NCBI RefSeq assembly: GCF_001019615.1
Contig: NZ_JNBQ01000001.1
Coordinates: forward strand, 372,001-436,000
DNA length: 64,000 nt
Origin: Cellulosimicrobium funkei
GTDB taxonomy: Bacteria; Actinomycetota; Actinomycetes; Actinomycetales; Cellulomonadaceae
Direction: 5' to 3'
Shown here piece by piece: positions 5,271-59,216 of this stretch. Made by a program: the position numbers and the translations under genes. Under the pieces are notes generated by a model that worked only from the letters and a program-made list of their open reading frames with translations, did not search any database and was not told where the DNA came from. Within the stretch, counting starts at the first letter, position 1, and the number at the start of each line of letters is the position of its first letter.

Positions 5271-6044
5271 GTGGGCCTGTTCGACAAGCTCAAGGACATG
5301 TTCTCGGGGACCGCGGACCTGTACGCGAAGGAGGACGCGCCCGCGCTCACGCCCGCGCAGCAGCGGGGTCTCGCGCTGGGCGCGGTCTACGCGGTCGAGG
5401 GCGTGCTGCCCATCAACGCGCTGACCGTGGAGGCGGACGCCCGTACGGCCGCGAAGCCGCTCGCGGCCGGGTGGGACGTGCGGGGCGCGGACGACGTCGA
5501 GCGCACGTACGAGCTCCTGCTCACCCAGGGCCACCGCGGCTACTACGCGATCGCGATGCCCAAGGTCGAGGAGCTGTACTCGGGCCGGCTGAGCCGCCGG
5601 GACGCGAAGGGCGCGGCCGAGCAGCACGCCGCGCAGGTGCGGCAGGAGGCGACGGCGCGCGGGCTCGACCCCGAGCGCGCGGTCGCGTTCTACCAGGGCT
5701 GGAGCGCGTCGGCGCAGGTCGGCGGGCACGGCGAGCTCGCGGACCCGCTGCCGCCGTCGATCGCGGCGTGGGACGCGGCACGCGTGGTGCACGTCAGCCG
5801 CCTGGCGATCGACGCCGGGTTCGTCACGCCCGAGCGGGCGTGGGCGGCGATCGAGGAGGCCGTCGTGATGTCGCGCCCCGCGTACGCGTCGTGGGAGCAG
5901 TTCGGCGACGGGTTCCTCGCCGGACGCGCGTTCTGGTCGGCGGGCAACCGCACCCCGCTCGACCAGGACCTGCCCGACTTCAAGCGCGCGGTGCGCCGAC
6001 TGCTCGACACCGAGTCGTCGCCGTGGCGGACACTGTCGTACTGA
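5271..6044 (+). CDS. DUF1266 domain-containing protein
   Basis: 257 residues from a GTG at 5271, chosen because AAGGAG lies about 6 nt upstream and because the encoded GLFDKLKDMFSG looks like a natural N-terminus; the frame is open further upstream without a good ribosome site. The C-terminal half carries DUF1266 hallmarks: AAWDAARVVHVSRLAIDAG, then EEAV, SWEQFGDGFLAGRAFW. Members are cytosolic, of unknown function, and occur widely in actinobacteria and enterics. No membrane segment. Confidence 0.75.
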   Translation: MGLFDKLKDMFSGTADLYAKEDAPALTPAQQRGLALGAVYAVEGVLPINALTVEADARTAAKPLAAGWDVRGADDVERTYELLLTQGHRGYYAIAMPKVEELYSGRLSRRDAKGAAEQHAAQVRQEATARGLDPERAVAFYQGWSASAQVGGHGELADPLPPSIAAWDAARVVHVSRLAIDAGFVTPERAWAAIEEAVVMSRPAYASWEQFGDGFLAGRAFWSAGNRTPLDQDLPDFKRAVRRLLDTESSPWRTLSY

Positions 6045-43623: not shown

Positions 43624-44268
43624 TCAGGCGGCCTGCGGGCTGCCGCACTCCGCGCAGAACCTCGCGCCCGCGGCGTTCTGCGTGCCGCACTCGCGGCACG
43701 CGGCGACCCGGGCGAGGCGCTCGCCGCACTCGCCGCAGAACTTGCCGCCGTCGACCTTCGCGTCGCACGACGGGCACCGGGTGACCGCGGCCGTCCGCAC
43801 GTCCGCGCCGCCGACGAGGTCGGTCGTGCGGAGCTGCTCCTGGACCTGGTAGCGGCGGGCCTCGGCCTGGAGCTGCGCGAGCTCCTCCACCTGCTTCGGT
43901 GAGCAGCGCACGCACTGGCCGACCGCGTCGTTCCAGCAGACCTCGTGGCACATCCAGTCGCCGCACCCGTGGCACTGGCGGAAGGCGTCGCGCACCTCGC
44001 CGACGGCGGCGTCGAGCGCCTTGTCCTTCGCCGACGAGTTGGTCTGCCGGTCGGCGGCCCACGACCCCGCCGCGTACGACAGGTCGGCCACCTTGCCGCC
44101 GAAGAACCGGCCCGCCGCCTGGATGAGGCTGCTGCCCTTGGCGACCACGTCCGTCTGGTAGGCCGAGCGGTAGCCGTTGCCGCACCGCTCGCACCGGAAC
44201 TCGAACTGGTACCCACCGGCGTTCGACAGGTCGCGGACGTTGTCGGTGAAGGCGATGGGCGCACTCAT
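43624..44268 (-). CDS. Zinc-ribbon protein with four Cys clusters
   Basis: 214 residues from an ATG at 44268. CERC at 26-29; a central cluster CHGCGDWMCHEVC plus CVRC (99-122); two C-terminal zinc ribbons CPSC/CGEC (165-181) and CREC/CAEC (191-208). Between the first two lies a helical segment AAGRFFGGKVADLSYAAGSWAADRQ. Such proteins are often annotated as double zinc ribbon and may act as metal-dependent adaptors. The promoter carries a clear palindrome at the predicted transcription start. Confidence 0.75.
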   Translation of the reverse strand: MSAPIAFTDNVRDLSNAGGYQFEFRCERCGNGYRSAYQTDVVAKGSSLIQAAGRFFGGKVADLSYAAGSWAADRQTNSSAKDKALDAAVGEVRDAFRQCHGCGDWMCHEVCWNDAVGQCVRCSPKQVEELAQLQAEARRYQVQEQLRTTDLVGGADVRTAAVTRCPSCDAKVDGGKFCGECGERLARVAACRECGTQNAAGARFCAECGSPQAA

Positions 44269-44333
44269 GGCAGGGACCTCGGCAGGCTCGGGGGGTCGGC
44301 GTCCCCGCAGGCCAGGCCCGCGGGCGGGGGACG

Positions 44334-44364
44334 TCATGGGGATCCCATGACCGCAGCGATGCTA
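44334..44364 (-). promoter_or_regulatory. Promoter and operator-like palindrome of the zinc-ribbon gene
   Basis: Minus-strand -10 TAGCAT is at 44359-44364. A perfect palindrome with 7-bp arms, TCATGGG-GAT-CCCATGA, lies at 44334-44350 where transcription would begin, a usual repressor position. The leader to the ATG is about 80 nt. Confidence 0.5.
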
Positions 44365-44420: not shown

Positions 44421-45338
44421 TCAGGCGCGGACGAGCCGGAGCGGGGCGTCGGCGGTGCGGACCGTGACGGTCTGGCCCCACGAGGCGACGAGGCGGTCGT
44501 CCTCCATGCCGTCGCCGAACACGACGAGCCGGTCCGAGGCGACGGTGAGGGCGACGTCCGCGCCGTCGTCCACGACGCCCTCCGTGAGCGTGGCGCCCGT
44601 CGCGGGCGACGGCCATGCCTCGCGCACGAACCAGCCGAGCCGGTGCTCGGTGCGCCCCGGCGCCGGGCGGCCGCCGCGGTCGTGCGCGAGCGACGCCCAC
44701 CAGCCCGTCGCGCCGGTCCCCGTGGCGACGAGCACTCCCGACGACGACTGCCGCTCCTCGCCCGCCGCGCACCGGAGCGTGTAGCGCGCGCTCTGGTGGC
44801 TCGGGTGCCCGACGAACACCTCGTTGAGCGCCGTGAGGTGCTGCCCGTCGTCGAGTTCGGCGCGCACCATGGTCAGCGCGTCGACGGGCAGGACCGCCGC
44901 GGGGTCGGGCGCGCCCGTGGCGACGTCGGCTCCGAGCCCGCTCAGGAGCGAGGTCGCCGCCCGCACCGAGTGCCGCACGAGCACCCCGGCGTTGACCCCG
45001 GGCTCGGGGTCGACGCCCAGCACGGGCTGCCCGAGCAGGTACTTCGCGACGTTCGCGACGAGGCCGTCCTGCCCGACGACGACCACGACGTCCTCCGGCG
45101 CGAGGAGGAACCGCGACAGGTCGGCGCGCTCGACGTCCGCGCGGGCCCAGCCGTCGGGCACCGCGGCCGCGACCGCCGCGCGGGCCGCGGTGAGCGCGTC
45201 GTGCCGAGACTGCACCTCGCCGAGCGACCGGCCCCGCGAGCGGAGGAAGAACTCCGCCTGACCGCGCGTGCCGTGCCGGTCGAGGAGCTCGTCGAGCTCG
45301 GTCCGCCGGTGCACGACGACGGCGCGTCGCCGCAGCAC
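44421..45338 (-). CDS. NAD-kinase-like protein (diverged active site)
   Basis: 305 residues from a GTG 2 nt after the SPFH stop. NAD-kinase fold landmarks in order: VVVVVGQDGLVANVAKYLLGQPVLGVDPEPGVNAGVL, where GQDG (89-92) replaces the GGDGT phosphate-binding motif; TALNEVFVGHPSHQSARYTL with LNE at 171-173; and SSSGVLVATGTGATGW (198-213) in place of the usual SGV...TPTGSTAY. The Asn-Glu pair is kept, but the other two motifs are altered, so it may bind NAD(H) or another nucleotide without being the housekeeping kinase. It is co-transcribed with an SPFH gene and lies next to an NrtR-like regulator, which supports a link to NAD metabolism. Confidence 0.72.
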   Translation of the reverse strand: MLRRRAVVVHRRTELDELLDRHGTRGQAEFFLRSRGRSLGEVQSRHDALTAARAAVAAAVPDGWARADVERADLSRFLLAPEDVVVVVGQDGLVANVAKYLLGQPVLGVDPEPGVNAGVLVRHSVRAATSLLSGLGADVATGAPDPAAVLPVDALTMVRAELDDGQHLTALNEVFVGHPSHQSARYTLRCAAGEERQSSSGVLVATGTGATGWWASLAHDRGGRPAPGRTEHRLGWFVREAWPSPATGATLTEGVVDDGADVALTVASDRLVVFGDGMEDDRLVASWGQTVTVRTADAPLRLVRA

Positions 45339-45340
45339 CG

Positions 45341-46363
45341 TCAGGCCGCCTTCCCGGTGGTGCCCGCCGTGGCGCCGAGCAGCGAGCCCAGCACACCCGT
45401 GAGGAGGTCGGGGGTGATGGTGAGGTTCTGGACGTCGGGGAGCGAGCCCGCCGCCTCGCGGACCGCGAGGGCGAGGAGGGTGCCCTGGCCGGCGCTCGCC
45501 CAGACGTCCATGCGCGCCTGCTCGGCGGCGGCCTCGGCCGCGCCGACGACGCGCACCTGCTCGGCCTTCGCGTCGGTCGCGAGCTGCGCGCGCTCAGCGG
45601 TCGCGCGGGCGTCGACCAGCGCGGCGGCGGCCTTCTCCTCCGCCTCGCGCCGGGCGTTCGCGCCCTCCTGGGCGACGAGGCGCTCGCGGCGGGTCGCGAG
45701 CTCGATCGTGCTCGCCAGCTCGTTCTCCGCGATCGCGCGCTCGCGCTCGACGGCGAGGGCCCGGCGCTCGTACGTCGCGCGGTCGGCCTCGGCCTGCACC
45801 CGCTCGCGCGCCGGCGTCTGGAGGGCGCGCTCGACGTCCTTCTCGGGCCGGACGGCGAGCACCTGGACGCCGATGACGGCGATCCCGGTCGCGGCGAGGC
45901 GCGGGTCCGTGGTCAGCGCCTCGGCGAGCACGTCGCGCACGCGGGGCACACCGGCCGTCAGGGCGTCGGCGAGGGGCATCGCGGCGAGCGCGTCGGCGGC
46001 GCGGCTCTGCGCGAGCCGTCCGACGATGCTCGTCACCTGGTCCCGGCCCGCGGTGCTCGTCTCTCCGCTGCCCGGGTCGACGGCGAAGTCGAGGCGCTGC
46101 GAGACGGTCACGGGGTCGGCGAACCGGTACGTGACGCCGGCCTGGACGGTGACGTCCTGGTGGTCGGCGGTCACGGCGTGGAAGAAGACGGGCAGCTCCT
46201 GGTCGTCGACGGGGACCTCCGAGAGGACCGACGTCGTCGGGCGGAACCAGAACGCCTGCCCGACGCCCTCGTGCGCGACGCGCCCGCGGCGCAGGTGCAC
46301 GACGTGCCCGGTGGGGCTGCCGAGGAAGTGCCGGGTCCACGGGTAGGTGCGGATGGTGGCCAT
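45341..46363 (-). CDS. SPFH/Band-7 domain protein
   Basis: 340 residues. The SPFH domain spans ~30-200: GHVVHLRRGRVAHEGVGQAFWFRP, VQAGVTYRFADPVTVSQRLDF, RDQVTSIVGRLAQSRAADALAAM, and AATGIAVIGVQVLAVRPEKDVERALQTP. A long Ala/Glu/Arg coiled coil (200-295) follows, as in flotillin and stomatin relatives. No N-terminal membrane helix is evident, so it may be cytosolic or peripherally membrane-bound and oligomeric. The ATG follows CGGAGACGACC. Operator-like sites at its promoter tie its expression to the divergent NrtR-like regulator. Confidence 0.85.
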   Translation of the reverse strand: MATIRTYPWTRHFLGSPTGHVVHLRRGRVAHEGVGQAFWFRPTTSVLSEVPVDDQELPVFFHAVTADHQDVTVQAGVTYRFADPVTVSQRLDFAVDPGSGETSTAGRDQVTSIVGRLAQSRAADALAAMPLADALTAGVPRVRDVLAEALTTDPRLAATGIAVIGVQVLAVRPEKDVERALQTPARERVQAEADRATYERRALAVERERAIAENELASTIELATRRERLVAQEGANARREAEEKAAAALVDARATAERAQLATDAKAEQVRVVGAAEAAAEQARMDVWASAGQGTLLALAVREAAGSLPDVQNLTITPDLLTGVLGSLLGATAGTTGKAA

Positions 46364-46378
46364 GGTCGTCTCCGATCG

Positions 46379-46407
46379 TTGTCGTCACTCTGACGATAAT
46401 GACGCTA
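46379..46407 (-). promoter_or_regulatory. SPFH operon promoter with NrtR-like operator 1
   Basis: The palindrome TCGTCA-CTC-TGACGA lies at 46382-46396, continuing into TAATG. Minus-strand -10 TAGCGT is at 46402-46407, so the operator covers the predicted start of the SPFH message. The same layout recurs at 46421-46442. Confidence 0.6.
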
Positions 46408-46420
46408 GACCGGCGGAGAT

Positions 46421-46452
46421 TTCTCGTCAACCTGACATCAATGTGCGACGAT
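46421..46452 (+). promoter_or_regulatory. NrtR-like operator 2 and leaderless -10 of the regulator
   Basis: TCGTCA-ACC-TGACATCAATG (46424-46442) repeats operator 1 at 42 bp, four helical turns. Shared pattern: TCGTCA, 3 nt, TGAC, 3 nt, AATG. It lies directly upstream of GACGAT (46447-46452), which is 6 nt before the ATG at 46459, so a bound protein would block the regulator's own promoter. Confidence 0.55.
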
Positions 46453-46458
46453 GGCCGC

Positions 46459-47310
46459 ATGACGCCGTCCGCGAGCCCGACGCCCGACGTCCCGCCGACC
46501 GCCGCGCTGCTGCCCGTCACGGTCGACGTCGTCGCGCTCACGGTCCGCGACGACGCCCTGCACGTGCTGCTCGTCGAGCGCGGCATCGAGCCGTTCCACG
46601 GCGCGCTCGCGCTCCCGGGCGGGTTCGTGCTGCCGCGGGAGGGGCTCGCCCGGGCGGCTCGGCGCGAGCTCGCGGAGGAGACCGGCGTCCGCCCGCCCGG
46701 TCACCTGGAGCAGCTCCGCACCTACGGGCCGCTCGACCGCGACCCGCGCGGGCCGGTCCTCTCCGTCGCCTACCTCCTGCTCGCGCCGGAGTTCGGCGTC
46801 GTCCACGCGGGGTCGGACGCCGGGGGAGCGGCCTGGTACCCCGTCGAGCCCTTGCTCGGGGCGGTCCCGGGCGGGCCGACGGCGTCGGGCGACCGGGCGC
46901 CGTCGGGCACGGGCCTCGCGTTCGACCACGCGCGGATCCTCGCCGACGGCGTCGAGCGCGCCCGCGCCAAGCTCGAGTACTCGGCGCTCGCGACGGCGTT
47001 CTGCCCGCCCGAGTTCACCGTCGCCGACCTGCGGCGCGTCTACGAGGCGGTGTGGGGCGTGCGCCTCGACCCGCGCAACTTCTCGCGCAAGGCCACGACC
47101 ACCCCGGGCTTCCTCGAGGACACCGGCCGCACGACGTCGGGCGGCGCCGGCCGCCCCGCGGCCCTCTACCGCGCCGCGCCGAACCCGGGGTCCCTCCCCA
47201 CGACCGGCCGCGCCTGGGGAGCGACCCCGGGTTCGGCAGGGGACCCGGACCTCGCGCCCGCGAGCGTGCCCGCCGTCCTCGACCCGCCGCTCATGCGTCC
47301 GCGACGCTGA
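46459..47310 (+). CDS. NrtR-like Nudix/winged-helix regulator
   Basis: 283 residues. N-terminal Nudix domain: VDVVALTVRDDALHVLLVERGIEPFHGALALPGGFV, with a complete Nudix box GX5EX7REUXEEXGU at residues 55-77 (ending RRELAEETGV). The C-terminal winged helix is LEYSALATAFCPPEFTVADLRRVYEAVWGVRLDPRNFSRKA, the NrtR signature. NrtR represses NAD-biosynthesis genes and is released by ADP-ribose. The intact box means residual hydrolase activity is possible. The start was placed by the leaderless -10. The last ~45 codons are encoded by a palindromic repeat element and read as low-complexity (NPGSLPTTGRAWGATPGSAG), which is probably a late extension of the gene. Confidence 0.82.
   Translation: MTPSASPTPDVPPTAALLPVTVDVVALTVRDDALHVLLVERGIEPFHGALALPGGFVLPREGLARAARRELAEETGVRPPGHLEQLRTYGPLDRDPRGPVLSVAYLLLAPEFGVVHAGSDAGGAAWYPVEPLLGAVPGGPTASGDRAPSGTGLAFDHARILADGVERARAKLEYSALATAFCPPEFTVADLRRVYEAVWGVRLDPRNFSRKATTTPGFLEDTGRTTSGGAGRPAALYRAAPNPGSLPTTGRAWGATPGSAGDPDLAPASVPAVLDPPLMRPRR
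47178..47237. repeat. Long palindromic element, copy B
   Basis: Arms 47178-47200 and 47215-47237 are 23 bp with one mismatch; loop 14 nt. The arm starts GCCGAACCCGGG as in copy A (24885-24948), and including flanks the two copies agree at most of 26 positions. This copy lies inside the 3' coding end of the NrtR-like gene. Confidence 0.65.
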
Positions 47311-55629: not shown

Positions 55630-57405
55630 ATGTCCCGTCGCCCACCCACCCGCACTTTCGCCCTGGGGGATCGCACCCGGCGCGTCGTCGCCGCGACGAT
55701 CGCCGCCGTCCTCGCCCTCGTCGGGGCGGTGGTCCTGGTCACCGGGCCGCAGGCCCGGTCGGCCTCGGCGGCGCTCGGGTTCTGCCCGGACCCCGGCGAC
55801 ATGCCCAACATCGGCAACCTGCCGGCCTTCACGGACTCGAACGTCACCGTCTACACAGGCGGTGACTACCGCGCCACGGCGAGCGCCGCAGAGTCCGAGG
55901 GCCTTCTCGTCGTCGGCGGTGACGCTGTCGTCGACGCTCCGGGGAACTTCAGCGTGGGTGCCGTCGGGGCGGGCTCGCAGATCACGCCGCCGGACGGGGC
56001 GGTGATGTTCGCCGTCGGAGAGGGCCTCGACATCGCGGCCGGAACGAGCGTCACCGTCGGCTCGACGCTGCCCAGCGGCGGCGCGGTGAACGTCGGCGGG
56101 ACCGTCACGGGAGCGGGGAGCCTCTCGACAGCGGGAACCGTCCCGGGCGTGGAAGCGCCCGTGACGGAGGGCATGGGGCCCGGTGCGCTCGCCGAGTGGT
56201 CCGACTTCGGGTCGGTGATAGCCGACGCGTCGAGCACGATCGCGGGGTGGCCGGCGACGACCGGTGTCGTGTCGGGGAACCGGGTCGTCTTCACGGGCAC
56301 CGGCACGGACGACCCGCAGGTGTTCTCCATCGACGCGACGGAGCTCGACGGCGTCACCGAGGTCGAGTTCGCCGCCATCCCGGAGGGCGCGGCGATCGCG
56401 ATCAACGTGACCGGCGACGCGCCCGTGGACTTCAGCCCGAACTTCTGGGTCGGCAACGGCGTCAACCAGATCAACGCGTTCGGCCCCCAGTTCGGCAACT
56501 GGGCCTCGCGGATCCTGTGGAACTTCGAGTCGACGCCGGAGCTCGCGCTGGGCCGGGCAGACCAGTTCCTCGGGACGATTCTCGCCCCGGCGGCGGACGC
56601 GACGATCACGACGAGCACCAACGGGCGCGTCCTCGTCGGGGGGAACCTCACGTTCGGCGACCCGAGCGTCACCGGCGGTCTCGAGATGCACAACTACCCG
56701 TGGATCGGCCCGGGACCGTTCGACTGCACCTCGGCAGCGAGCTTCGTCGTCCAGAAGACCGTGACGGGCGAGGCCGCCGCCGACGTGCCCGCCGGGACGA
56801 CGTTCGAGGTCGAGTACACGTACGAGGAGCCGGACGGGACGACCGGTGGCGACACGCTCGTCGTGCCGATCAGCGGCGCGCTCGTGAACGGTCCGACGCT
56901 GCCGGTCGACACCGTCGTGACGGTCACCGAGACGGACCTTCCTTCCGTGCCCGGCGTCGAGTGGGGAACGCCCGTGATCCAGGTGAACGGCGAGCCGCTG
57001 GGCGACCCCGCGCAGTTCACGATCCAGGAGAACCAGACCGTCACGGTGACCGTGGTGAACACGGCGAACGGCGGCGCCGTCCCGACGGTGGGCGGGTTCT
57101 CGGTGGCCAAGGCCGTGACGGGTGACGCCGCGGGGCTCGTCCCCGCCGACACCGCGTTCCTGGTCGACTGGGAGGCGGGGCTCCCCGAGGGGGCGACCTA
57201 CGACGGCGACCTGTCCGGCACGCTGACCGTCCTCGCGGACGGGACCGTGACGAACGGTCCCTCCGACCTGCCCGTCGGCACCACCGTCGCGCTCGCCGAG
57301 CGGACGCCGCTGCCCGAGGTGGACGGCGTCGAGTCGGGGGGGATCCGGTGCTCAGCCCGGCGTCGCCCGTCACGATCGTCGAGGGCGCGACCGGGGTCGC
57401 GGTGA
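55630..57405 (+). CDS. Surface adhesin, N-terminal part (choice-of-anchor A + DUF5979), frame broken at 57336-57342
   Basis: 591 codons as read. Signal sequence/transmembrane start (VVAATIAAVLALVGAVVLVTG), then a choice-of-anchor A domain (~50-360): SEGLLVVGGDAVVDAPGNFSVG, VVFTGTGTDDPQVFSIDATEL, ILWNFESTPELALGRADQFLGTILAP, and GRVLVGGNLTFGDPSVTGGLEMHNYPW. DUF5979 repeat 1 and most of repeat 2 follow. At a run of seven G (57336-57342) the frame shifts and ends in a basic nonsense tail (SGGIRCSARRRPSRSS). The conserved EWG-type sequence expected there is restored in the frame of the next entry, so these two are one gene broken by an indel. Confidence 0.85.
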   Translation: MSRRPPTRTFALGDRTRRVVAATIAAVLALVGAVVLVTGPQARSASAALGFCPDPGDMPNIGNLPAFTDSNVTVYTGGDYRATASAAESEGLLVVGGDAVVDAPGNFSVGAVGAGSQITPPDGAVMFAVGEGLDIAAGTSVTVGSTLPSGGAVNVGGTVTGAGSLSTAGTVPGVEAPVTEGMGPGALAEWSDFGSVIADASSTIAGWPATTGVVSGNRVVFTGTGTDDPQVFSIDATELDGVTEVEFAAIPEGAAIAINVTGDAPVDFSPNFWVGNGVNQINAFGPQFGNWASRILWNFESTPELALGRADQFLGTILAPAADATITTSTNGRVLVGGNLTFGDPSVTGGLEMHNYPWIGPGPFDCTSAASFVVQKTVTGEAAADVPAGTTFEVEYTYEEPDGTTGGDTLVVPISGALVNGPTLPVDTVVTVTETDLPSVPGVEWGTPVIQVNGEPLGDPAQFTIQENQTVTVTVVNTANGGAVPTVGGFSVAKAVTGDAAGLVPADTAFLVDWEAGLPEGATYDGDLSGTLTVLADGTVTNGPSDLPVGTTVALAERTPLPEVDGVESGGIRCSARRRPSRSSRARPGSR

Positions 57406-59091
57406 CCGTCACGAACGTCGCGGTCGCCGTCGTCGGGGGATTCACGGTGCAGAAGGCTCTCGAGGGAGGCGCGGCGAGCGCCGTCCCCGGTGACACCGCG
57501 TTCCTGGTCGACTGGACCGCGACCGTCCCCGCGGGCGTCGCGTACGACGGCGCCACGTCGGGCACGCTGACGGTGCGCGCCGACGGGACCGTGGCGAGCG
57601 GCCCGACCGACCTGCCGGTCGGCACGACGGTGACGCTCGCCGAGCAGCAGCCGCTGCCCGAGATCGCGGGCGTGGAGTGGGGTGTACCGACGCTCGAGCC
57701 TGCCTCCCCGATCACGATCGTCGAGGGACCGACCGGTGTCGCGGTGACCGTGACGAACACGGCGGACGCGCCCGCGGAGATCGGCGGGTTCGCGGTGCAG
57801 AAGTCCGTCACGGGCGACGCGTCGGGGGCGGTGCCGCCGGACACCGCGTTCGTCGTCGCGTGGGAGGCCGAGCTCCCCCCGGACTCCGGCTACGAGGGAG
57901 CGACCTCCGGGACGCTCACCGTGCTCGCGGACGGGACCGTGGTGGACGGGCCGCAGGACCTTCCCGAGGGCACGGTCGTGACGTTCACCGAGCAGACGAT
58001 CCCCGACGTCCCGGGCGTCGACTGGGGCACGCCCACCGTGTCGCCCGGCACCGTGACGATCGGTGACGGCGACGCCGTCGCGGGGGTCGTGGTGACGAAC
58101 ACGGCGACCGCGCGGACGGGCGGGTTCTCCGTCGCGAAGGCGGTCGAGGGCGGCCTCGCCGGGAGCGTGCCGCCGGGCACGCAGTTCGAGGTCGAGTGGT
58201 CCGCGACCCTGCCCGCGGGCTTCGCGTACGACGGCCCGCTCACGGGGACGCTGACCCCGCTCGCGGACGGCACCGTCGTCGACGGCCCGCAGGACCTCCC
58301 GGTGGGGACGGTCGTGACGTTCACCGAGATCAACCTGCCCGAGGTCGACGGCGTCGTCTGGGGCGCCCCCACGTTCTCCCCGGGGTCGGTGACGGTCGGG
58401 GACGGCGCGAACACCCTCGTCACGCTGACCAACACCACGCAGGACGTGGCCGAGGTCGGCGGGTTCTCCGTGGCCAAGGAGGTGACCGGCGACCGCGCGG
58501 AGCTCGTGCCCGCCGACACCCTGTTCACCGTCGCGTACTCGTACGAGCTCGACGGCACCCTCGTCGGCGGCTACCTCCAGGTCCCGGCCGACGGGACGGT
58601 CGTCGCCGGCCCGCAGAACCTCCCGGTCGGCACGGTCGTCACCTACACGGAGGCCGACCTGCCCGACATCACGGGCGTCGCGTGGGGCGTCCCGACGTTC
58701 AGCCCGCAGTCGGTGGTCGTCGGCGACGGGGACGACACCCTCGTCACCGTGACGAACACGGCGAACCAGGCGGCGGGCGGGTTCTCGCTGGTCAAGCGGG
58801 TGACCGGCGAGGCGTCCGCCGCCGTCCCCGCGACCACGGAGTTCGTCGTGGCCTACGCGTACGACTCGCCCGCCGGGACAGTCACCGGGACGCTGACCGT
58901 CCGCGCCGACGGGGTCCCGGTCGAGGGGCCGCAGGACCTCCCGGCCGGGACCGTCGTCCGGCTCACCGAGACGGAGCTGCCCGAGATCGGTGGGGTCGAC
59001 TGGGGCGCGCCGGCGTTCACCGTGGACGGCACGGCGGTCACCGAGGTGACGGTGGGTGACGGCACGGTGGTCGTGACGCTCACGAACACGG
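56740..59091 (+). repeat. Seven DUF5979 repeats in the adhesin gene
   Basis: Units start at 56740, 57094, 57438, 57786, 58122, 58461 and 58779. Spacings are 354, 344, 348, 336, 339 and 318 nt; only the second is not a multiple of 3, which locates the frame break to unit 2. Confidence 0.85.
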
Positions 59092-59216
59092 CGGGGGAGC
59101 AGGGTCTCGCGGTCACGGGCTCCGACGCGGTGCTCGTGACGACGCTCGCGCTGCTGTTCCTCGGGACCGGCGCCGCGCTCGTCGCGATCCGCGCCCGACG
59201 GGGCCGCACCGCCTGA
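57348..59216 (+). CDS. Surface adhesin, C-terminal part (DUF5979 repeats + LAVTG sortase anchor), same gene as previous
   Basis: 622 codons. In this frame repeat 2 finishes (SPASPVTIVEG, VTVTN), then five more DUF5979 repeats of about 106-116 residues follow, each with GGF(S/T)V.K.V.G, (L/V)P.(D/T)T.F, GTLT...DG, GPQDLP.GT.V...E, and GV.WG.P motifs. The C-terminus has LAVTGSD (59106-59120), a transmembrane helix (VLVTTLALLFLGTGAALVAI) and a basic tail RARRGRT. LAXTG is the motif of class E sortases in actinobacteria, so the product would be wall-anchored. It has no ribosome site of its own, so unless the frame is restored it would not be made as a surface protein. Confidence 0.85.
   Translation: MLSPASPVTIVEGATGVAVTVTNVAVAVVGGFTVQKALEGGAASAVPGDTAFLVDWTATVPAGVAYDGATSGTLTVRADGTVASGPTDLPVGTTVTLAEQQPLPEIAGVEWGVPTLEPASPITIVEGPTGVAVTVTNTADAPAEIGGFAVQKSVTGDASGAVPPDTAFVVAWEAELPPDSGYEGATSGTLTVLADGTVVDGPQDLPEGTVVTFTEQTIPDVPGVDWGTPTVSPGTVTIGDGDAVAGVVVTNTATARTGGFSVAKAVEGGLAGSVPPGTQFEVEWSATLPAGFAYDGPLTGTLTPLADGTVVDGPQDLPVGTVVTFTEINLPEVDGVVWGAPTFSPGSVTVGDGANTLVTLTNTTQDVAEVGGFSVAKEVTGDRAELVPADTLFTVAYSYELDGTLVGGYLQVPADGTVVAGPQNLPVGTVVTYTEADLPDITGVAWGVPTFSPQSVVVGDGDDTLVTVTNTANQAAGGFSLVKRVTGEASAAVPATTEFVVAYAYDSPAGTVTGTLTVRADGVPVEGPQDLPAGTVVRLTETELPEIGGVDWGAPAFTVDGTAVTEVTVGDGTVVVTLTNTAGEQGLAVTGSDAVLVTTLALLFLGTGAALVAIRARRGRTA

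Follow-up and report, generated by a model that had tools for sequence, protein, structure and literature searches.

A conserved module joins an NrtR-family regulator and its paired operators to an SPFH protein and a divergent NAD-kinase-like protein

Background

SPFH proteins are common in bacteria, where most of them still lack an explanation, and NrtR regulons are generally regarded as serving the synthesis of nicotinamide adenine dinucleotide (NAD). Here we describe a three-gene module in a 64,000-nucleotide stretch of Cellulosimicrobium funkei DNA (the window; contig NZ_JNBQ01000001.1, positions 372,001 to 436,000). A gene for an NrtR-family regulator is divergent from an operon encoding an SPFH protein and a protein of the NAD kinase fold, termed NADK-like below, with two palindromic operators between them. 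On comparison of genomes the trio is a conserved unit, and the same comparison shows the operon, the operators and the pairing of regulator with operator. We consider it probable that the module is an autoregulated NrtR switch over a soluble SPFH scaffold and its NADK2-like partner, serving as a response to NAD-metabolite stress.

An original prediction, made from the sequence alone, had recognised a Nudix protein with an NrtR winged helix divergent from an SPFH and NAD-kinase-fold gene pair. All three genes lie at the predicted coordinates, and matches to Pfam NUDIX, NrtR_WHD and Band_7 and to NADK2 bear out the assignment. The families of the parts are known, but we found no description of the unit as such, of its operator or of the NADK-like subfamily, all of which seem to be new. 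The prediction knew of no system of such composition, and in the literature that we searched, mostly open papers, no paper linked SPFH to NrtR or Nudix, or to NAD kinase; an earlier mention is possible in the founding NrtR paper (doi 10.1093/nar/gkn047), which lay outside the reach of the search.

Results

Conservation of the module

In a scan of GTDB species genomes the NADK-like family was represented by at least 495 loci; counts out of 80 given here refer to the best 80 of these. An SPFH gene lies directly upstream of the NADK-like gene at all 80, the two genes overlap or are at most 10 base pairs (bp) apart at 75, and a divergent NrtR gene is present at 72. The original prediction hung on conservation of this neighbourhood and of its operators in related genomes, and both are conserved: the complete trio occurs in 18 of 18 readable relatives, and paired operators lie between the genes at 70 of the 72 trio loci. 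Across 59 relatives, SPFH and full-length NADK-like proteins co-occur in exactly the same 19 genomes. The trio's proteins have correlated evolutionary distances (r 0.88-0.91 over 67 loci, uncorrected for species relatedness), as expected of a unit inherited together.

Thirteen of 17 genomes of the window's genus carry the trio; the remaining four are without SPFH, NADK-like protein, NrtR and operator. Because the wider region, flanking genes included, is collinear and at the same chromosomal position throughout the genus, these genomes count little as evidence of conservation. At more distant loci from other genera (L033-L037) the tested flanking genes are all lost and the trio is complete in the same order. 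Organisms represented among the best 80 loci include Cellulosimicrobium, Oerskovia, Arthrobacter, Mycobacterium, Actinoplanes, Nocardioides, Glycomyces, Actinomadura and others, and no other conserved neighbour was found outside the close relatives. In one Streptomyces-like genome the NADK-like gene is followed by an extra Nudix gene, which was rejected as a member because no other locus has it.

The trio, together with a related operator type, is also present in Proteobacteria. A tblastn search against plasmids recovered the arrangement of the window, NUDIX | SPFH - NADK-like, in Rhizobium etli, Methylomonas, Moraxella, Providencia, Cupriavidus and Proteus, with identities of 31-36%, and the NrtR winged helix is present in the Nudix proteins checked from the Rhizobium, Methylomonas, Moraxella and Providencia loci. 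A DNA-level search of E. coli found no copy of the module.

Several loci are unusual in their setting. The module or its NADK-like end adjoins tetR-tet(H) or tet(J) in Moraxella, Proteus and plasmid pHHV216 (L223 5403-7317, L224 6111-7304, L226 4456-7320), an adjacency that may mark a site where tetracycline genes were acquired. One distant phylum member (L180, genome G313) has all three genes on one strand, in the order nrtR-SPFH-NADK-like; its NADK-like match, close to the end of the contig, is divided between two reading frames. Two contigs carry copies resembling those of other genera, QAPD01000094.1 (L062, Sphaerisporangium cinnabarinum, a Cellulosimicrobium-like copy) and NZ_JADHDY010000004.1 (L122, Sporosarcina beigongshangi, an Arthrobacter-like copy); both records are probably mislabelled or contaminated.

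Paired operators tie the regulator to the operon

Two copies of a 21-bp palindromic operator, TTATCGTCA-N3-TGACGATAA, lie between the divergent genes, 16-38 bp 5′ of both start codons. The original prediction had placed the two sites correctly at 46382 and 46424 and had written them as TCGTCA-N3-TGAC-N3-AATG; that pattern has to be replaced, AATG being only the right edge of the palindrome. In the window the core TCGTCA-N3-TGAC occurs 6 times, where chance would give 0.14 (palindromic sites counted on both strands). Operators were called in the loci from at least 13 of 18 matching positions. When intergenic regions were dinucleotide-shuffled (n=1320), one site arose in 7 and two sites in 0. 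The spacing within pairs is 33-36 bp in 39 loci and 42-46 bp in 29, with none near 38-40 and one pair at 51 bp; the two main classes (68 loci) correspond to about three or four helical turns. Jonesia quinghaiensis (L035 / L080) has an insertion of about 700 bp between the promoters, so that its best-scoring sites are 699 bp apart, with two operators at SPFH and one at nrtR.

Within the window's genus the motif is confined to the module locus and is missing from the genomes that lack the trio. Streptomyces-like genomes carry the nrtR orthologue away from the operon. There an operator stands immediately 5′ of nrtR in 8/8 genomes, and both operators are kept at the SPFH promoter in 7/7 genomes having the operon, which ties the regulator to the operon independently of adjacency. 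At gamma-proteobacterial loci a related type, TTAGTGTC-N5-GACACTAA, is repeated two to four times; judged by eye, the core common to both types would be GTC-N5-GAC. On these sequence comparisons the pairing of regulator with operator, and its control of the operon, are well supported.

Candidate regulon sites elsewhere were discarded. Core matches at 58417 and 58741 of the window fall inside the coding sequence of a long cell-surface-type repeat protein (57348-59216, plus strand), whose TLVTVTNT repeats yield chance matches to the operator core. The sequence TACTCGTCAAGTGGTCGAGAA, repeated in Streptomyces-like genomes, lies within coding sequence beside a small downstream gene.

Features of the locus are collected in Table 1. 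The regulator gene begins at 46459 and not at the first ATG of its open reading frame, which falls within the operator region. A sigma-70 consensus scan of the intergenic region gave no promoter match. The operon is followed, in the same orientation, by a double zinc-ribbon gene (43624-44337, minus strand); it was considered as a fourth member of the module and rejected, since it is present in most loci of the genus and in 0/6 loci of other genera.

Table 1. Genes and operators of the module, in window coordinates
Feature	Position	Strand	Remarks
NADK2-like protein gene	44421..45338	-	305 residues; second in operon; V-G-Q-D-G-L-V-A-N, ALNE, QSSSG..TGTGATGW
SPFH/Band_7 gene	45341..46363	-	340 residues; first in operon, 2 bp before NADK-like gene
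Operator 1, TTGTCGTCACTCTGACGATAA	46379..46399		16 bp 5′ of SPFH start codon
Operator 2, TTCTCGTCAACCTGACATCAA	46421..46441		18 bp 5′ of nrtR start codon; centres of operators 1 and 2 are 42 bp apart
NrtR-family regulator gene	46459..47310	+	283 residues; Nudix domain, then NrtR winged helix; divergent from operon

An NADK2-like protein with an altered motif

The NADK-like protein has no Pfam match and resembles human mitochondrial NADK2 (1.6e-4 by sequence, 7e-16 by profile). Its AlphaFold model (predicted local distance difference test, pLDDT, 93) matches the NADK2 fold at Z 24.6 over 279 residues with 21% identity, and bacterial NAD kinases less well, at Z about 22 (M. tuberculosis NADK, Z 21). 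Its QSSSG and TGTG are NADK2-type variants. According to a review, the GGDG motif occurs in all NAD kinases, and its Asp deprotonates the 2′-OH of the NAD ribose (PMC8553519). In the NADK-like family GGDGT has become GQDGL or GPDGL: GQDG is found in 69/80, GPDG in 11/80 and GGDG in 0/80, and all five aligned copies from other bacterial groups have GQDG. The GQDG reported by the original prediction is thus confirmed and can be stated more precisely, as a change of Gly to Gln at the second position, with Pro in 11 of the 80 relatives and the catalytic Asp retained. That Asp (D91) and N172 of the NE/D motif are invariant on alignment and kept in comparison with P. aeruginosa and Salmonella NADK. 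Because GGDG, given for all NAD kinases, is absent, we do not assign the protein to them, although its action may be similar. Elsewhere the genome carries a canonical nadK, which has GGDGT.

A probably soluble SPFH protein

The SPFH protein matches Pfam Band_7/SPFH PF01145 (5.2e-15; 56 bits against a cut-off of 23.6). A monomer model has an SPFH domain followed by a long C-terminal coiled-coil helix of about 115 residues, with no membrane segment apparent. It is close to HflK/C, prohibitin, erlin, stomatin and vault protein, and structures of SPFH domains match at Z 12-14. By family, the product is expected to form a ring- or cage-like oligomer. The tight gene linkage, within 10 bp or overlapping in 75/80, leads us to predict that the SPFH and NADK-like proteins partner physically.

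The regulator and its candidate ligand

The regulator matches Pfam NUDIX (5.5e-16) and NrtR_WHD (6e-16), both above cut-offs, and its Nudix box is intact (GX5EX7REUXEEXGU). The box is likewise intact in 69/69 actinobacterial trio NrtRs with a usable gene model and degenerate in the aligned proteobacterial trio regulators, so that hydrolysis may be an actinobacterial feature and ligand sensing general. An intact box was rejected as a hallmark of the trio, as it is present in Streptomyces paralogues of another operator type and lacking in the proteobacterial regulators. Against NCBIfam NF050029, an ADPR-responsive repressor family, the window regulator scores E 1.1e-27 and 97 bits with a cut-off of 400, and thus belongs to a divergent subfamily and not to the same equivalog; for the Providencia trio NrtR, the match to the NCBIfam 'ADPR responsive transcriptional repressor' has an E value of 1.2e-79.

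NrtR of M. smegmatis (MsNrtR) is released from DNA by ADP-ribose (PMC6800001). A second Streptomyces NrtR paralogue (L208 4205-5976), with the operator TATAGTC-N5-GACTAT, adjoins an ADP-ribosylglycohydrolase (PF03747, 1.5e-62). Membership in the MsNrtR family, the NCBIfam match of proteobacterial members and the position of this paralogue argue for ADP-ribose; the module regulator probably senses this or another NAD breakdown product or NAD(P) metabolite.

Discussion

Proposed mechanism and what it would mean

We propose that NrtR, probably as two cooperating dimers, would occupy the paired palindromes, which overlap both start regions, and would repress both itself and the spfh-nadk-like operon. 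A rise in ADP-ribose or a related NAD breakdown product would lead to binding at the Nudix domain and release of the repressor; we infer repression and this ligand from the families concerned. The derepressed operon would then supply a soluble ring- or cage-forming SPFH scaffold and its NADK2-like partner. From the scaffold, this partner would bind NAD(H) or a relative and act on it, either in the manner of an unusual NAD(H)-type kinase or by sensing the nucleotide. The intact Nudix site of the actinobacterial regulators may also destroy the signal, resetting the switch.

A more far-reaching claim is that this is a new system, present in Actinobacteria and Proteobacteria at the least. In it, a signal from NAD breakdown would induce a soluble SPFH cage, and a new NAD-kinase-fold subfamily with an altered phosphate-binding motif would either reside in the cage or gate it. 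This subfamily would have a new activity: another substrate, another phosphoryl donor or pure sensing. We advance this whole proposition tentatively, as having somewhat under an even chance.

If the module works as proposed, a conserved unit would connect NAD breakdown to an SPFH scaffold through a divergent NAD kinase fold, supplying both a partner and a trigger with which to probe SPFH function. The NADK-like proteins, currently annotated 'hypothetical protein' or 'sugar kinase', would define a large unnamed family with at least 495 members in GTDB species genomes.

Alternative explanations

The module might be an ordinary NAD regulon, in which the NADK-like protein is a second, induced NADK2-type NAD(H) kinase, SPFH is its anchor and NrtR exerts its usual control. 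This would suit a protein whose closest fold is NADK2, an active kinase, and which keeps the GxDG Asp and the NE/D motif together with the NADK2-type QxSSG and TGTG, as well as a regulator known to act on NAD genes. However, the family has exchanged the GGDG reported for all NAD kinases for GQDG or GPDG without exception, including the five copies from other groups, the genome already has a canonical nadK, and second NAD kinases of Actinobacteria have been described without such a partner (PMC6675116); we think this explanation unlikely. Loss of the second Gly throughout, with a strict new motif G(Q/P)DGLVAN family-wide, and the very close or overlapping gene pair would also agree with a dead enzyme that acts as a nucleotide-binding sensor and gates SPFH oligomer assembly or client access. 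Its retention of the 2′-OH-deprotonating Asp and the NE/D motif, which a dead enzyme could dispense with, leaves this account doubtful, though with an appreciable chance of being right. An anti-phage or conflict module answering NAD depletion would explain the patchy distribution within the genus and the plasmid-borne copies, and NrtR-type sensing would report NADase activity. PADLOC and PHROG searches, however, gave no match for SPFH or NADK-like proteins and only a weak Nudix match (PADLOC), no copy occurs among 50,697 phage records, representative loci have no conserved defence neighbour, and the module keeps one chromosomal position throughout the genus, which makes such a role improbable. 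Chance synteny through close kinship could account for the shared region within the genus, flanks included, but is refuted by other genera, which retain the trio and its operators between different flanks, and by the trio at 31-36% identity in Proteobacteria; we give it practically no weight.

An NrtR-type switch over SPFH and a nucleotide-binding partner, as the original prediction had it, is the best reading on the strength of the conserved neighbourhood and operators. Several observations weigh against it. SPFH-NADK-like pairs on Treponema, Roseomonas and Streptomyces plasmids have no linked NrtR; the Streptomyces-like genome G226 (L203, near 5650-5700) is without the SPFH-NADK operon and retains nrtR and its operator, so that NrtR must also have a function apart from the operon. 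Homologues of NrtR can act outside NAD metabolism, as BtAraR does in controlling L-arabinose use (PMC4666351). NrtR and NADK-like scores are both under curated family cut-offs, and the NADK-like family is without GGDG.

Comparison with known systems

Like characterised NrtR regulators (SoNrtR, 3gz5/3gz6; MsNrtR), the module regulator combines a Nudix domain and a winged helix with palindromic operators and a divergent target, and as in MsNrtR, for which autoregulation is reported (PMC6800001), an operator also stands at its own promoter. Its target genes are outside NAD synthesis and salvage, being SPFH and NADK-like genes where known NrtRs control nadABC or salvage genes. Its operator is TTATCGTCA-N3-TGACGATAA, two in tandem, in contrast to the GTTTTCGA-N7-TCGAAAAC of mycobacterial NrtR, and actinobacterial module NrtRs keep an intact Nudix box, unlike MsNrtR (PMC6800001) and SoNrtR.

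The operon resembles known SPFH operons (stomatin/QmcA-NfeD, HflK/C-FtsH) in joining an SPFH domain with a long helix to a partner gene, and the lack of a membrane helix is shared with the soluble SPFH8/9 subfamilies (PMC2636767). The partner here is NADK-like, not NfeD or FtsH, and the SPFH survey reported no NADK-like partner for other subfamilies (PMC2636767). The NADK-like protein shares with NADK2 (7r4j, 7r4l, 7n29) the fold over nearly the whole chain, ALNE and QxSSG..TGTG, and differs in having GQDGL or GPDGL in place of GGDGT and an SPFH gene as its partner.

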